A DNA stretch of 48,684 nt, taken from an uncultured bacterium (GTDB taxonomy: Bacteria > Acidobacteriota > Thermoanaerobaculia > Thermoanaerobaculales > Thermoanaerobaculaceae). Positions 29,514-34,903 of the stretch are shown piece by piece (the first letter of the stretch is position 1; each line of letters begins with the position of its first letter). The notes beneath the pieces were generated by a model. It was given only the letters and a program-made list of their open reading frames with translations. It ran no database searches and was not told the DNA's origin. The position numbers were made by a program, and so were the translations under genes. The stretch lies in assembly GCA_937924755.1 (NCBI GenBank), contig CALEVZ010000051.1:1-48684 (forward strand). The letters run 5' to 3'.

Positions 29514-30893
29514 CTAATCGAGGCGCTGACGAAAGAGCCACGCAACCCCCGCCACGGCGGCGACGGCTGCGGCAATGGCGAGGGCGCCCCACACCCCCAG
29601 CGCGGTCTCCCGGACGACGCGCACCCGGAAGTGGCTCACACCCTCCCGGCGACCTCGCGGCTGGTTCTGGGCGCGCGGGTACAGCTCGAGGGCATATTCG
29701 CCGGGCAAGGCTTCCCCGCCGATCTCCACCAGCACCTGGAAGGCTGCCTTCTGGCCCACTGCCAGGCGCTCCACCGGGTCCCCGACGAACCCCCGCAGCG
29801 GCGCCGGCACCTCGGCCACCACCGTGACCCCGAGGGCAGGGGCGGTACCAGTGTTGATGACCTCCAGTGGCAGCGCGACGGTCTTGCCCGCCACCCCCTC
29901 CGCCAGCCAGGTGGGTGCCCGCACCTCCAGCCTCGGTGAGCCCACAGGGGTGAGCTGCAGGGGAACCTCCACCTCTTGCCCCGCGCGGCCTTGTCCTTGC
30001 AAGACCAGGTGAAAGGCAATGGGAATATCGGGCACCACGCCCGGCGCCTCGCCCGCAGGGATGGTCACCAGCAGCTCGATGTCCCGGGCTCGGCTGCCGG
30101 CCTCCATGCGCAGGGAGGAGATCCCGGCTCCCGTCGCCGTGTCCACGTATCTCGTCCGACACGCCTCGGGAAGCCCCCGGGTTTCCAGCGCGAGGGTCAG
30201 CTCATCGGCGACCAACGGCTCCACCCGCACCACAAAACGCGCCTCCTCCCCGAAGGTGGCGGCGAGTGCCGGCTGGAGAGCCAGCACCCTAAACGGCCGG
30301 GGCGAGCTCTGGGCTCGGGGGACCAGGGTGACCTGCTCCACCCGGTTCTGGTATTCCAGCTGGACCGTGGGGGCGTCCACCGCACGGAGGAGACGAAAGT
30401 GCAGCTGCGCCCGTTCCCCGGCCGCGAGGAACGGCACCACCGTCGCGTAGGGATAACCCACCACCACTCCCTCGTGGAGGAGGGAGACCTTGAGGTCCGC
30501 AACGCCGAAGCTGCGGGCGACTTCGAGCTCCTCCTCCCCCCGCCCACCGGGTGGGGGGAGGGCCAACTCCAGGCTGATGGCGTCCAGGGCGTCGGCAGAG
30601 CTGTGACGGATGCTGTCGACGACGAGCACGTGAAGGCGGCTCCCCTGCAGGGCCCAGAGCGCCTCGGCGTAGTCCAGGTCGGCCAAGGCCGCGGCGGCCT
30701 TTGCCTTTCCCAGCTCGGCCTCCGAGACCAACCCCTCGCGGGCGAGGGCCTCTACCCGGCGCTGCTCCTCATGGGCGAGCTGCCGGCGCGCGCGAGCCCG
30801 GGCGAGCGCGGTCCACTCGCTTTGTGCCATCACCGCCGTGCCGCCGAGGGCCGCGGCCAGGACCATCAGGAGGAGGGGTTTACCCCTCGGCAC
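29514..30893 (-). CDS. Membrane-anchored NEW3-like (CARDB-like) exported protein
   Basis: A protein of about 459 aa, last gene of the peptide/ABC operon. The start is probably GTG 30893 (MPRGKPLLLMVLAAALGGTAVMA signal segment) with GGAG seven bases upstream, overlapping the ATPase gene end by 14 bp; ATG 30866 is the alternative. Residues 25-80 form a charged helical hairpin (RARARRQLAHEEQRRVEALA). The middle and C-terminal parts are Ig-like beta domains: VPLQLTPVGSPRLEVRAP, then ALPLEVINTGTAPALGVTVV and LPGEYALELYPRA resemble NEW3/CARDB modules found beside ABC-2 transporters. A final transmembrane helix (WGALAIAAAVAAVAGVAWLF) and RQRLD anchor it with the beta domains outside. It probably acts as the periplasmic partner of the transporter. 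Function unknown. Confidence 0.75.
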   Translation of the reverse strand: MPRGKPLLLMVLAAALGGTAVMAQSEWTALARARARRQLAHEEQRRVEALAREGLVSEAELGKAKAAAALADLDYAEALWALQGSRLHVLVVDSIRHSSADALDAISLELALPPPGGRGEEELEVARSFGVADLKVSLLHEGVVVGYPYATVVPFLAAGERAQLHFRLLRAVDAPTVQLEYQNRVEQVTLVPRAQSSPRPFRVLALQPALAATFGEEARFVVRVEPLVADELTLALETRGLPEACRTRYVDTATGAGISSLRMEAGSRARDIELLVTIPAGEAPGVVPDIPIAFHLVLQGQGRAGQEVEVPLQLTPVGSPRLEVRAPTWLAEGVAGKTVALPLEVINTGTAPALGVTVVAEVPAPLRGFVGDPVERLAVGQKAAFQVLVEIGGEALPGEYALELYPRAQNQPRGRREGVSHFRVRVVRETALGVWGALAIAAAVAAVAGVAWLFRQRLD

Positions 30894-31572
30894 GAAAGAG
30901 CTCCACCAGCGTTGCAGCGTCTCCTCCCTGCACCTCTTTTTCGATTCGCCCTGCGCGCATGAAGCCCACGCGATGGGCAACAGTACCCAGCGCCACCACA
31001 TCGTGGCTCACCGCCAGCACGGCCACCCCGTCCCGGGCGAGCTGCCGCAGACGTTCGATCAGCTGGTGCGATGCCTCGGGATCGAGTCCCGAGGTCGGCT
31101 CGTCCAGGATGGCGACCTTCGGCTGACCCAGAAGTGCCAGGACGAGGGCGAGTTTCTGCCGCATCCCCTTGGAGTAGGTGGCGACACGCTGCCGCCACGC
31201 CTGCTCCGGCAGGCCGCCCTCCCCCAGGACCCGGGCAGCATCGACGGGGACGCCGAGCAGGTGGCTGATTAGGGTCACATGTTCCAGACCGGTGAGAAGG
31301 TCCCACAGTGACACGTTTTCCGGGACGTAGCCGAGCAACGATCGGGCTCGCCTCGGCTCGACGAGGGCATCCACACCGGCGATGACGATGCGGCCCTTTT
31401 GAGGTCGGACGAAACCCAGGATGCACCCGACCAGGGTGGTCTTCCCCACCCCGTTGGGACCGGCGAGGCAGTACACCTCCCCCGCGGCCACCGCCAACTC
31501 GGCGCTCGCCAGCACCGCCTCCCGCCGGCCTCGGTAGCGAAACTGCACCTCGCGAATTTCGAGGGCGTTCAT
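30880..31572 (-). CDS. ABC transporter ATP-binding protein
   Basis: A 230-aa ABC ATPase of the ABC-2 (CcmA/drug-lantibiotic) type. Walker A GPNGVGKTT, signature YSKGMRQKLALVLAL, Walker B KVAILDEPTSGLDPE and switch His VLAVSHD are intact. YVPENVSLWDLLTG is the Q-loop-proximal segment usual for this class. ATG 31572 overlaps the permease stop by four bases (ATGA), so both subunits are coupled. It would power the permease encoded just upstream. Confidence 0.93.
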   Translation of the reverse strand: MNALEIREVQFRYRGRREAVLASAELAVAAGEVYCLAGPNGVGKTTLVGCILGFVRPQKGRIVIAGVDALVEPRRARSLLGYVPENVSLWDLLTGLEHVTLISHLLGVPVDAARVLGEGGLPEQAWRQRVATYSKGMRQKLALVLALLGQPKVAILDEPTSGLDPEASHQLIERLRQLARDGVAVLAVSHDVVALGTVAHRVGFMRAGRIEKEVQGGDAATLVELFRAEG

Positions 31573-32984
31573 CGCACAGGCACCCGGGCCATCACCGCCA
31601 CCCCCACCGCCACCGCCACGGCGGACCACGCCGCCAGTCCGCAAAGCGCCGCCAGAAGGGAAAACCCGGCCGGCTCGGGGAGAGGCTGGGGGAAGGTGGG
31701 GAGGTCGGCAGGGTCGGGGCGACGGGACCGGTTGGGGTCCTGATCGAAGGGCATGGTGTACTCCACCGCTCCCCGCTTGGATTCCACCGTCCGCGCCAGC
31801 TGGACGGCGTAGGCCGCGACTCGCTCCAGGTAGCGGTGGAGGCTTCCCGGCCCACACGCGGCCACGCTCTCCATGGCCCCGGCCAGGAGGCCGCCGGGGA
31901 GCCATCGACTCGCCCAGCCCTCGGCCGCGGCGGCGAGAGCGCGCCGGCGCAGGTACGCGGCGAAAAGCTCCCCCAGCCGACGGTGGAGTTCCTCGTAGGT
32001 TTGCCGGCGCAGCTCGTTCATGGTCGCCTCGAAGCGAGCCTGCCCGGGTGGGCCTTCCCGCAGCCACTGGCGCATGGGCTCGAGGGACTTCTCTTCGAAG
32101 GTGCGTCGACTTTCCGCATGCAGGGAGGCGGCAGAGGCGTCCAGCAGGGCCCGCTCGGGGTAGGGAACCAGGATGCGGCTCAGGCCGGCCAGGGCCTGTG
32201 GCAGCGCCACCAGCAGAAAGACCCACATCCCCACGCAGGCCAGCAGGGCGGTGGCCGGTTCCGGGGTGGCCGCCGAGGCCGCCGCCCCGATGCTGGCAAA
32301 GACGACCCCCAGGACGGTTCCGGCCACCGCCAGGGCCAGCAGTGTGGGCCAGAAGGTGGGGTCGCGGACAAACTCCGGCGCGAAGGCGGCGGTCACCCCG
32401 CCGGCGCCGACGATCGCAGCAGCCGAACAGACTCCCACCACCATCGCCCGCGCCCCCAGCTTGATGAGGAATACCCGCTGTCGGGAGCCCACCCAGCTTA
32501 CCAGCAGGCCAAGGGTTCGACGGGAGCGCTCGAGGGCGATGCTGTCGAAGGTCAACAGCACCGCCAAGAGGGGGAAGAAGAAAAGGACGACCTGTGCCGG
32601 AGCGGGGGCGCTCGCCTGTGCCTCCCATCCGACGGGCAACGGCAGAGCCGTGGACGTCACGAGAAACCCAGGCCAGGGGCGGAGGTCCACGAGAAAGCGG
32701 CCACTGGGATGGGCGGGATGCACCATGACGCCGGTTTCGGAGAGATCGCTCCAGCTGGTCAAGGCGGCCAGGCGCTGGGCGTTGAGCTGGGTGAAGGCGC
32801 TGCTCACGTCCCGATGATCTCGCCAGGCGCGCGCCGCCACCAGGAGCGAGCCCACCGCCACCACCAGCTGCAGCGCCACCAGAAGGACAAACCGGCGGCT
32901 GCGCCGCAGCTCGACCAGCTCCTTGCGCAGGAGAGCCCACGTCGCCCGTCTCACCGCGCCCCGTCCTTCATGCGACGTCCTCAT
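31569..32984 (-). CDS. ABC-2 type permease (DUF3526-like)
   Basis: A 471-aa membrane protein. An N-terminal helix (RFVLLVALQLVVAVGSLLVAA) is followed by a large extracytoplasmic loop. A helix block comes next: APAQVVLFFFPLLAVLLTFDS, VVGVCSAAAIVGAGGVTAAF, TLLALAVAGTVLGVVFASIG and ATALLACVGMWVFLLVALPQ. Then a long, charged soluble segment (about 270-390) and a last helix near the C-terminus. ALERSRRTLGLLVSWV (coupling-helix-like) is typical of ABC-2 permeases of gliding/lantibiotic-efflux type with a big loop (DUF3526). Start ATG 32984 lacks a ribosome site; GTG 32954, after AAGGACGGGGC, is a plausible alternative. The substrate is unknown; the 62-aa peptide of the same operon is the obvious candidate. 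Confidence 0.85.
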   Translation of the reverse strand: MRTSHEGRGAVRRATWALLRKELVELRRSRRFVLLVALQLVVAVGSLLVAARAWRDHRDVSSAFTQLNAQRLAALTSWSDLSETGVMVHPAHPSGRFLVDLRPWPGFLVTSTALPLPVGWEAQASAPAPAQVVLFFFPLLAVLLTFDSIALERSRRTLGLLVSWVGSRQRVFLIKLGARAMVVGVCSAAAIVGAGGVTAAFAPEFVRDPTFWPTLLALAVAGTVLGVVFASIGAAASAATPEPATALLACVGMWVFLLVALPQALAGLSRILVPYPERALLDASAASLHAESRRTFEEKSLEPMRQWLREGPPGQARFEATMNELRRQTYEELHRRLGELFAAYLRRRALAAAAEGWASRWLPGGLLAGAMESVAACGPGSLHRYLERVAAYAVQLARTVESKRGAVEYTMPFDQDPNRSRRPDPADLPTFPQPLPEPAGFSLLAALCGLAAWSAVAVAVGVAVMARVPVR

Positions 32985-33006
32985 CGATCACCCAGGTGCC
33001 GCAAGC

Positions 33007-33543
33007 CTAGCCGCCATCGCCGGAAACTTCAACACGAGCCACCAGCGCGTCCACCAGCCGCCAGCCGAGGAGCGTCTGCTCGAGCGGTCCGGGTGGTACG
33101 CACTCCTGCAAGAGCTTCTCTCCCAGGTGCTCCAGGCGAACCTCCGGCGTGCAGGAAGGCTGGTTGTGGTCGAGCTCCCCAACGCCAATCACTGGAACGG
33201 TGAGGTCGAAACGGCGTCCCAGCTCGCCGGCCTGCTCGCTGCTACCCCCCAATACTTCGATCCTGCAGGGCACCTGCCAGTCGCGGCACACGCCATGGAA
33301 CGTGCTGACGAAATCCACACACCCGGGACAGTCGTCGAGGCGAAGGAGAAGCCGGGCCTGCACCTTGCCCTTCGTCGGAAGGGGAGCGACGAGGCTTTGT
33401 TTGGCGCGCGCCGCCAGATATGCGGACAGCGTGCTCGCACACGTTTTCTTTTCGCGCTGCAGTCGCGCGATGCTCACGGCTTGGAACACGTTGACCGCGA
33501 GGGAAAGCCATAAAGCTGCCAGGAGCAGCCAGCGGCCGGTCAT
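33007..33543 (-). CDS. Membrane-anchored thioredoxin-fold protein with CPGC motif
   Basis: A 178-aa protein. An N-terminal transmembrane anchor (WLLLAALWLSLAVNVFQAV) leaves the rest outside the cytoplasm. LLLRLDDCPGCVDFVSTF places a CPGC redox motif (C72, C75) after a beta strand, as in thioredoxin folds. RRFDLTVPVIGVGE supplies the cis-Pro loop (TVPV). Further Cys residues (C35, plus later CRDWQVPC and PSC) are present. Likely role: dithiol-disulfide exchange in the periplasm, plausibly on the Cys-rich peptide of this operon. Start ATG 33543 overlaps the stop of the preceding gene (ATGA). An MauD/DsbA-type or simple redox-relay role cannot be separated. Confidence 0.8.
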   Translation of the reverse strand: MTGRWLLLAALWLSLAVNVFQAVSIARLQREKKTCASTLSAYLAARAKQSLVAPLPTKGKVQARLLLRLDDCPGCVDFVSTFHGVCRDWQVPCRIEVLGGSSEQAGELGRRFDLTVPVIGVGELDHNQPSCTPEVRLEHLGEKLLQECVPPGPLEQTLLGWRLVDALVARVEVSGDGG

Positions 33544-34505
33544 GGTGGAGTCTCCCAGCGCTGGGGTACGAGTCGGCCACCCGGGTGGTACACGAGCAGG
33601 GCGTCTCGTGCGATGCCAACCACCTTCCCCTCGACCGGGATCGGCCGACGACCGGCTCCGCCCGGCTCGACCACCACGACCCAGCTGGTGTTGGCCTCGA
33701 GGGAGTAGTAGGGGATGACCGCGCTTTTGTCGCTTGAGAAAAAAACGCCCGTGGCGAGGGGTGCCGAGTGAAGAGCGGCTTCGAGCCTGTCTGCCTGGTC
33801 AGCCGGATATTTAACCCAGGGAATACCTGCCTTTGGTAAGTCCACCTTCTTCCATTCCTTGGCTGCCCGCGCACGGTTGAAGGCCAGCGGAGAACCCTCC
33901 GCAACAACCCAAACCGAGCCGTGCGGACTCGCGCCGACCAGGTACTTCCACGAAACCGGCCGGGCGGGAAGGGGAGGTAGCGGCGGCGTCTCGAGTCCGG
34001 AGGCTTGCCACGCGAGGGAAGGACCGGAGAACTCGTGAACCTGGAGGCAGCCCAGATCCAGATAGCCTTGCAGCGGGTAGCAACCAGTGACGAAGAGCAC
34101 TCCGGCGCCCCCGTCCACCGCCAGCCACCTCGGATAATAAGGGTATGGGTGATTCCCTCGCAGGAGGTGGGCGGATCGTTTCTCCAAAGCGCCGGTGAGC
34201 TCCACCACCTGGCCGGTCCCGTAGTCGGCCAGCAACGCGCCTTCTCGCCAGGCGGCGAGTGCTGATGGCTTGGTGACTCCAAGCGACGCGGTGGCGCGTC
34301 GCCGGAGCAGCTCTCCCGCTGGGGAGTACACGAGAATTTCGGAGGCGGAAGAGGCTTTAGCGGGTTGAAGCGGGTCATGGGTCCGGACCCAGAACTCTCC
34401 TCTGACTTCGATCAGCTGGGCCACGTTCCCGGGCGGGGGGGTGAGCACAACGCTGTCAGACAAGGGGAAAAGCGCCGCCGCCGCGGCTACAGCAACAATG
34501 ACCAT
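33540..34505 (-). CDS. Exported propeller-like protein of the peptide/ABC operon
   Basis: A 321-aa protein of unknown function. Start ATG 34505 is supported by AGGAGGAGCTC directly upstream. The first 20 residues (MVIVAVAAAAALFPLSDSVV) look like a short signal segment. The rest is beta-rich with recurring short blocks: VAQLIEVRGEFWVRTHDP, SASEILVYSPAGELLRR, PRWLAVDGGAGVLFVTGC, LVGASPHGSVWVVAEGSP and GKVVGIARDALLVYHPGG. This pattern, about five to six blades of 45-55 residues, suggests a six-bladed beta-propeller (NHL/TolB-like). The next gene overlaps by four bases. It resembles, in position, the propeller proteins that accompany small NVEALA peptides in Bacteroides; that parallel is inference from recall. 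Confidence 0.65.
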   Translation of the reverse strand: MVIVAVAAAAALFPLSDSVVLTPPPGNVAQLIEVRGEFWVRTHDPLQPAKASSASEILVYSPAGELLRRRATASLGVTKPSALAAWREGALLADYGTGQVVELTGALEKRSAHLLRGNHPYPYYPRWLAVDGGAGVLFVTGCYPLQGYLDLGCLQVHEFSGPSLAWQASGLETPPLPPLPARPVSWKYLVGASPHGSVWVVAEGSPLAFNRARAAKEWKKVDLPKAGIPWVKYPADQADRLEAALHSAPLATGVFFSSDKSAVIPYYSLEANTSWVVVVEPGGAGRRPIPVEGKVVGIARDALLVYHPGGRLVPQRWETPP

Positions 34506-34575
34506 GAGCTCCTCCTGCTGGTTTGGAGGTGGAGCGGGCGGTGGCGCCCCCGCCCGTCCACCCATGAGCCGCGTA

Positions 34576-34764
34576 TCACAAGTTGACGATTCGGCAGACG
34601 CACGTGCCGATCAGGACCGGGCATTCGCAGACGTCCGGACCGACCTTGTTCCCCGCCATGACGATGGGAGGGCGGGGCTCTGCCCAGGTCTCGAGAGCCG
34701 CCAACCCCGCCGCCGGGGCGATGATGAGGGCCACCACCGCCGAGATTTTTTGCACGTTTCTCAT
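34576..34764 (-). CDS. 62-aa secreted Cys-rich peptide (candidate RiPP-like or signal peptide substrate)
   Basis: First gene of the operon. Start ATG 34764 has an excellent site, GAGGAAGGAG (34771-34780), and a strong promoter lies 42 bp upstream of the ATG. The N-terminus is a leader (MRNVQKISAVVALIIAPAAG) with basic end, hydrophobic core and an Ala-rich cleavage region around residues 18-23. The mature part, about 39 aa, is Pro-rich (EPRPPIVMAGN) and ends with four closely spaced cysteines: VCEC (C46, C48) and TCVC (C55, C57), then RIVNL. No known family is recognised. Neighbours encode a propeller, a CPGC thioredoxin-fold protein and an ABC-2 exporter, which fits an exported disulfide- or metal-binding peptide. 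The stop lies 70 bp before the propeller gene. Confidence 0.8.
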   Translation of the reverse strand: MRNVQKISAVVALIIAPAAGLAALETWAEPRPPIVMAGNKVGPDVCECPVLIGTCVCRIVNL

Positions 34765-34805
34765 CGTTGGCTCCTTCCTCTTTTAAGTTGCCAGCCGGCG
34801 AGAGG

Positions 34806-34834
34806 AACATACGGTTGTTTTTTTTTTTTGTCAA
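34806..34834 (-). promoter_or_regulatory. Strong sigma70 promoter of the peptide/ABC operon
   Basis: On the minus strand: TTGACA (34834-34829), a 17-bp spacer beginning with a run of twelve A, then TATGTT (34811-34806). The predicted start near 34799 gives a 5' leader of about 35 nt with a good ribosome site. This is the best promoter in the window, and the A-tract spacer is unusual in such GC-rich DNA. Confidence 0.85.
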
Positions 34835-34903
34835 GCCTGCCTGCCTTCGCGAACGCCGGCGCCGGCGGCCCCCCGGTGATTTCGGCCAGTGGTAGGATCA
34901 ATC

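Follow-up and report, generated by a model that had tools for sequence, protein, structure and literature searches.

Methylamine dehydrogenase is encoded by a gene cluster in which a small disulfide-type secreted protein (the light chain MauA), a propeller (MauB) and membrane thiol oxidoreductase functions (MauD, MauE) are found together. A similar combination, with a propeller-like protein, was observed in a six-gene operon located on the minus strand (34834-29514) of a 48,684-nucleotide stretch of DNA, referred to as the window, from an uncultured hot-spring-type acidobacterium of the Thermoanaerobaculaceae. The operon encodes a secreted peptide with four cysteines, an exported propeller-like protein, a membrane-anchored thioredoxin-like protein (redoxin), an ABC-2 permease, its ATPase and a NEW3-domain protein; all six open reading frames (ORFs) described earlier from the letters of the DNA alone (the sequence-only reading) were present. 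It differs from the methylamine dehydrogenase cluster in its shorter peptide, in the lack of tryptophan from the mature peptide, and in the added ABC-2/NEW3 genes. In addition, the light-chain family PF02975 was absent from the window genome (G000) and from the relative with the same six genes (G009), and was found in G049 and G055, members of the window's class with clear light chains at E ~1e-41 (L165, G049:C10; L166, G055:C6). None of the six window genes matched MauE (PF07291), which was matched in a distant peptide-propeller-redoxin set (L160), and a MauD-like protein likewise occurs among such sets.

Other described systems share part of this composition. The NVEALA loci of Bacteroides (PF14055) pair a small secreted peptide with a propeller, and the resemblance noted in the sequence-only reading holds as a loose analogy only: the window peptide did not match PF14055 at E ≤ 1, nor was there a match for any other scanned peptide, none of 120 relatives exceeded its cut-off (Bacteroides ihuae matched in the controls), and the loci studied here lie in another phylum and add a redoxin and ABC-2/NEW3 genes. 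Nitrous oxide reductase is a propeller enzyme. In its NosDFY/NosL system, in which NosL is a copper chaperone (PMC6530538), an ABC-2 permease, an ATPase and a periplasmic partner accompany a small protein, as they do in the window beside a putative propeller; however, the partner is the NosD beta-helix there and a NEW3 protein with a hairpin of the membrane fusion protein (MFP) type here, and no Nos family matches were obtained. In NHLRC2-type proteins, thioredoxin-like and propeller domains act together (PMC6107167); a propeller fused to a TlpA-type domain in one acidobacterial genome (G142) is comparable, whereas the window encodes separate secreted proteins and a peptide. The closest published hint comes from the decRiPPter families of Streptomyces, for which the sections of the report concerned with them place MauE/MauD homologues beside a Cys-rich small precursor and propose a role in precursor modification (PMC7794033). 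These sections give precursors of at least 8 Cys and mention no propeller or NEW3 protein (PMC7794033), and the window operon has no MauE.

The peptide, the propeller-like protein and the redoxin form a trio which appears undescribed: searches of an open literature library, which covered NVEALA, NEW3 proteins with radical SAM enzymes, and propellers with MauE, gave no description. The sequence-only reading had likewise named no described system with the exact six-gene set. The operon is composed of two separable modules, the trio and the ABC-2/NEW3 genes, a point absent from that reading. We propose, with a probability of about 0.6, that it produces a Sec-exported, disulfide-bonded microprotein together with a dedicated propeller partner, a thiol oxidoreductase and a peptide-linked ABC-2/NEW3 machine.

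The operon and its counterpart in Thermoanaerobaculum

The first gene (34576..34764, minus strand) encodes a 62-residue peptide with a signal-type N-terminus, as judged by a simple hydrophobicity rule that was applied to all signal peptides. The four clustered cysteines at positions 46, 48, 55 and 57 were confirmed, and the predicted mature part is approximately EPRPPIVMAGNKVGPDVCECPVLIGTCVCRIVNL. No confident Pfam or NCBIfam family was found for this peptide, PF14055 included. A strong match to the gene 2 protein was present in one other genome only, that of Thermoanaerobaculum sp. SKYB76 (G009), where all six genes occur in the same order (locus L065) at 30-47% identity: 31% for the peptide, 33% for gene 2, 35% for the redoxin, 33% for the permease, 47% for the ATPase and ~40-41% for the NEW3 protein. 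The order is hence kept in two genera. The motif C.C...IG.CVC.I is invariant between the window peptide and its homologue (L065:4806-5006), and RPP opens the mature part in both. The net charge of the mature peptide is ~0 in the window and +1 in the homologue, and neither contains a tryptophan after residue 30.

A search for the peptide C-terminus in other genomes, proposed in the sequence-only reading, was performed with a degenerate DNA version of the CxC...IG.C.C motif over 296 genomes. Four genomes matched: that of the window, that of L065, where the whole set was recovered, and two in which the motif lay in RsmH genes; the latter two were rejected as containing no peptides. In the RsmH (MraW) genes of L102, L103 and L026, a CxC...CxC segment resembles the peptide motif, which makes it a trap for pattern searches.

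A sigma-70-like promoter (TTGACA-17 nt-TATGTT, the spacer containing an A-tract) was identified by a promoter-pattern search at 34806..34834 (minus strand). It was the only such site in the 6 kb searched (0.3 expected by chance), which agrees with the single promoter claimed previously. In L065, the homologous peptide gene is likewise preceded by an A-tract, and a search for a promoter consensus there found none. A hairpin between the peptide and propeller genes (34506..34575, minus strand; z -2.3) is a possible attenuator or processing site, and its equivalent in L065 (z -4.1) has a terminator-like 13-bp stem with CTTTT. This element, strong in both genomes, would favour expression of the peptide over that of its partner genes. 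ATGA overlaps join genes 2-3 and genes 4-5, as had been claimed; the claimed overlap of genes 5-6 exists only if gene 6 starts at GTG 30893 (GGAG upstream), whereas a start at ATG 30866 leaves a gap. Links to phages, plasmids, viral contigs and PADLOC systems were looked for, and none was found.

Gene 2 (33540..34505, minus strand) encodes an exported protein of 321 residues from ATG 34505, which is preceded by AGGAGG and is probably the true start rather than the ORF opening at 34565. Its two cysteines lie in GCYPLQGYLDLGCL and are both invariant in L065, within the conserved segment GC.P.QGYLDLGC. That the protein is exported stands, while the beta-propeller label given to it draws on weak profile matches (Ycf48, 0.006; Kelch, 0.004 for the L065 homologue) and on Foldseek matches, mostly to propellers, that were non-significant (E ≥ 0.03) and came from a poor AlphaFold model (mean predicted local distance difference test, pLDDT, 40; relatives too few). 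No internal repeat was seen with a two-sequence profile, and the propeller fold of the window protein is weakly supported.

Gene 3 (33007..33543, minus strand) encodes a membrane-anchored CPGC protein of 178 residues, whose CPxC is kept in L065 as CPNC. The AlphaFold model, with one N-terminal helix followed by beta-alpha units, was poor, again for want of relatives (mean pLDDT 54), and gave no significant Foldseek match; sequence-profile searches of the PDB yielded nothing useful. Genes 2 and 3, like the peptide, matched no Pfam or NCBIfam family with confidence. The membrane-tethered CPGC protein of the sequence-only reading is present, and its thioredoxin fold is weakly suggested by the CPxC motif, weak Pfam matches and a profile match to other redoxins.

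Cysteine peptides beside propellers in Acidobacteriota

The trio was examined across the phylum by a search seeded with the propeller of another genome, G127, in which a 72-residue secreted peptide with 4 Cys, a propeller and a CVSC redoxin adjoin ABC-2/NEW3 genes. Neighbouring genes were screened mechanically, and a short ORF was accepted as a peptide if it had a ribosome-binding site, an N-terminus of the signal type and three or more Cys. Trios or trio-like sets were found in L119, L157, L160 (two modules), L158, L146, L161, L199, L202, L197, L211, L216, L217 and L188. A seven-propeller profile matched 171 of 247 Acidobacteriota genomes. From these matches, 58 propellers were sampled by score rank, blind to their neighbours, with a peptide window of 700 bases. 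A Cys peptide adjoined the propeller on the same strand in 22 cases and on the opposite strand in none (0/58). A redoxin accompanied 12 of the 58 propellers, and 10 of the 22 with an adjacent peptide; the CxxC redoxin calls in this wider set were mechanical and a few may be wrong. When the peptide screen was applied to reversed DNA, it returned one match in 606 kb, compared with 17 in the forward sequence.

The cysteine count was even in all 36 collected peptides (4-12 Cys), which fall into 13 loose sequence clusters, and within clusters the counts differ by steps of two. As nothing in the screen selected for parity, the even counts form the main argument that these peptides may be disulfide-bonded. 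None of the scanned trio peptides had a confident Pfam or NCBIfam match, and the peptides are mostly dissimilar between loci. The propellers of these distant trios are 6-bladed, and several trios share the order peptide-propeller-redoxin; in L199 this order comes with a 4-bp overlap of the propeller and redoxin genes, as in the window. In the window operon, too, the small secreted peptide has an even number of Cys, and its gene adjoins that of the exported propeller-like protein, with the reservation on the fold of the latter given above. The profile of the window redoxin matched those of L199 (4e-4) and L157 (1e-3), and an hhalign comparison with other trio redoxins aligned CxxC on CxxC (E 2e-4, probability 48%), which makes a modest case for homology. 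The peptide was thus upheld as a core component, being kept in the only syntenic relative and recurring, as Cys peptides, beside propellers and redoxins phylum-wide.

Several trios showed further features. A MauE gene (9.5e-26, above the Pfam cut-off) adjoins the trio of L160, and the redoxin of another trio resembles MauD (8.6e-7) and ResA. L160:9342-13699 (G175:C22) contains two tandem trio modules of opposite internal order, one of them followed by the true MauE gene; the second module encodes a redoxin-like protein without CxxC. Homologous secreted peptides with 12 Cys have propeller neighbours in genomes from different families of Acidobacteriota (L206:5971-6276, L207:1625-1921). Short genes for AraC-like helix-turn-helix proteins adjoin trio modules at L160:8875-9294 and L199:8390-8767 and may regulate them.

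The ABC-2/NEW3 module

The remaining three genes encode an ABC-2 permease of 471 residues (31569..32984, minus strand; PF12679, 2e-21), an ABC ATPase of 230 residues (30880..31572, minus strand; PF00005, 3e-25) and a NEW3 protein (29514..30893, minus strand, from the GTG start; PF10633, 2e-8), and the three assignments made previously were confirmed by Pfam. The closest NCBIfam models of the ATPase, all below cut-off, were DrrA-type and lantibiotic-protection ATPases. The NEW3 protein consists of a signal-type N-terminus, an HlyD/MFP-like helical hairpin with weak MdtN/EmrA-like matches (9e-4 to 0.03), the NEW3 domain and a C-terminal transmembrane helix. A permease, an ATPase and a NEW3/MFP-hairpin protein are encoded together in the window operon, and relatives of the NEW3 protein were found in 25 of 246 genomes. 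Many permease matches in genus g22 were set aside as ordinary ABC-2 systems without a trio.

The module adjoins a trio, or part of one, in three places on the NEW3 tree, with at least two label changes forced; in L113, for example, a 6-Cys peptide lies between the propeller and permease genes. The distribution would therefore imply either repeated encounters of the two modules or a long-lasting association with losses. Next to the L068 propeller there is an uncertain redoxin remnant, which was left out of the counts. In G095, a peptide and a permease share one contig (L163) and a NEW3 gene is located on another (L120).

Elsewhere, the module is found next to genes of other kinds. In L106 it adjoins a radical SAM/SPASM protein with a PqqD-like domain, the row at L106:3448-11466 comprising this gene, an ABC-2 permease, a kinase/formylglycine-enzyme-like gene, a NEW3 gene with its frame broken by stops, and an ATPase. 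In L067:3153-10153 (G001, of the window's family), a C39-peptidase-like ABC exporter and a SPASM-type C-terminal fragment lie beside NEW3 and ATPase genes, a probable locus for a ribosomally synthesised and post-translationally modified peptide (RiPP). Among the six window genes, Pfam detected neither a radical SAM protein nor any other known modification enzyme of the kind expected in a RiPP cluster. A Cys-rich protein of 230 residues containing CCGACCGLCCGTIGGECW, with no family match, adjoins the module in L107. It belongs to a conserved group of ~200-250 residues with a very Cys-rich tail, encoded upstream of the permease-NEW3-ATPase genes (L107:6985-7677, L108:11985-12758, L115:4626-5225).

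Proposed mechanism and competing explanations

According to the proposed reading, the peptide would cross the inner membrane by Sec, and the CPGC protein would oxidise or isomerise the two CxC pairs of the peptide to give a cystine-ladder hairpin, by analogy with MauD/MauE and the methylamine dehydrogenase light chain; two such pairs at a distance of six residues, with an I-G turn between them, would be well suited to this structure. The propeller-like protein may then bind the folded peptide as partner or receptor, and the ABC-2/NEW3 complex, with the NEW3 protein as its putative periplasmic coupler, could act on the matured peptide by driving its release or outward transfer, or could provide self-protection. 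As to its role, the peptide may be a signal or an antagonist, or it may belong to a propeller enzyme as a subunit or as the carrier of a cofactor. The sequence-only reading left open whether the redox protein oxidises the peptide or keeps it reduced; oxidation is favoured because of the even Cys counts and the co-occurrence of MauE/MauD relatives. Its suggestion of export through the ABC pair is unproven, as a Sec-type signal is present on the peptide itself and some trios have no ABC-2/NEW3 genes nearby.

Several observations weigh against the proposed reading. Only two genomes are known to carry the close six-gene form, and the window trio is shown to be homologous to the others, modestly, through its redoxin only. 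Gene 2 aligned to the other trio propellers (DUF5128/NHL-like) with an hhalign probability of 4%, having too few relatives for a profile, and the AlphaFold models of genes 2 and 3 were poor. In L119 the trio and the ABC-2/NEW3 module are convergent and form no single operon. Trios without the module and ABC-2/NEW3 loci without a detected peptide are both common.

More tentatively, and at slightly less than even odds, the trios may represent an undescribed, phylum-wide class of secreted disulfide microproteins, each with its own propeller and thiol oxidoreductase and in some lineages with ABC-2/NEW3, which would form a diversifying system for signalling or antagonism, or one of enzyme subunits. 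The results suggest that bacteria secrete a large group of unannotated microproteins whose genomic partners are constant and whose Cys numbers are always even; they also offer a general rule for finding such peptides, which is to look beside propeller and redoxin genes. The window further provides a compact operon for testing how the propeller and the ABC-2/NEW3 machine act on the matured peptide.

An alternative that we consider unlikely is an antimicrobial or signalling cystine-ladder hairpin, with ABC-2/NEW3 providing immunity or export and the propeller acting as receptor. The CxC...CxC spacing recalls protegrin, the small secreted disulfide-type peptides vary strongly from locus to locus, as would be the case under diversifying use, and tandem peptide copies occur in L146, L199, L207 and L216. 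ABC-2/NEW3 relatives are also found in RiPP-like loci, and the nearest types of the ATPase, below cut-off, would fit such a role. However, the net charges of the window and L065 peptides are unlike those of cationic hairpin peptides, and no immunity gene or known bacteriocin family was matched.

It is quite improbable that peptide and propeller are the small and the large subunit of a periplasmic enzyme comparable to methylamine dehydrogenase; maturation of the subunits would then fall to the redoxin with MauE, and the peptide might carry a peptide-derived cofactor. The component classes are those of the mau cluster, real MauE and MauD-like proteins occur in some trios, and many trio peptides contain tryptophan. 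On the other hand, the window genome has no light-chain match, the peptides are far shorter and very diverse, and tryptophan tryptophylquinone or cysteine tryptophylquinone cannot form in the window and L065 peptides because their mature parts contain no tryptophan.

Metal maturation of the NosDFY/NosL kind is, if anything, a little less probable again. Here a soft metal, copper or another, would be carried by the peptide, whose thiols the CPGC protein would keep reduced, and ABC-2/NEW3 would act as the periplasmic coupler for loading of a metal into the propeller. A PF12679 permease with a large periplasmic partner reproduces the NosFY-NosD layout, CxC pairs suit Cu(I), and a MauE/DoxX protein encoded next to one trio shows a weak resemblance to HvfX (5e-5), a maturation protein of a copper-binding RiPP. 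Nevertheless, the spacing of the cysteines varies freely while their parity is fixed, which fits disulfides better than a single metal site, and no NosD beta-helix, NosL or NosZ family match was found in the operon.

The least probable explanation is a chance neighbourhood of unrelated ABC-2/NEW3 and trio genes: each module often occurs without the other, but their tight co-directional spacing is kept in two genera at the identities given above, and the modules meet again in L113/L068 and L119, at separate places on the NEW3 tree.

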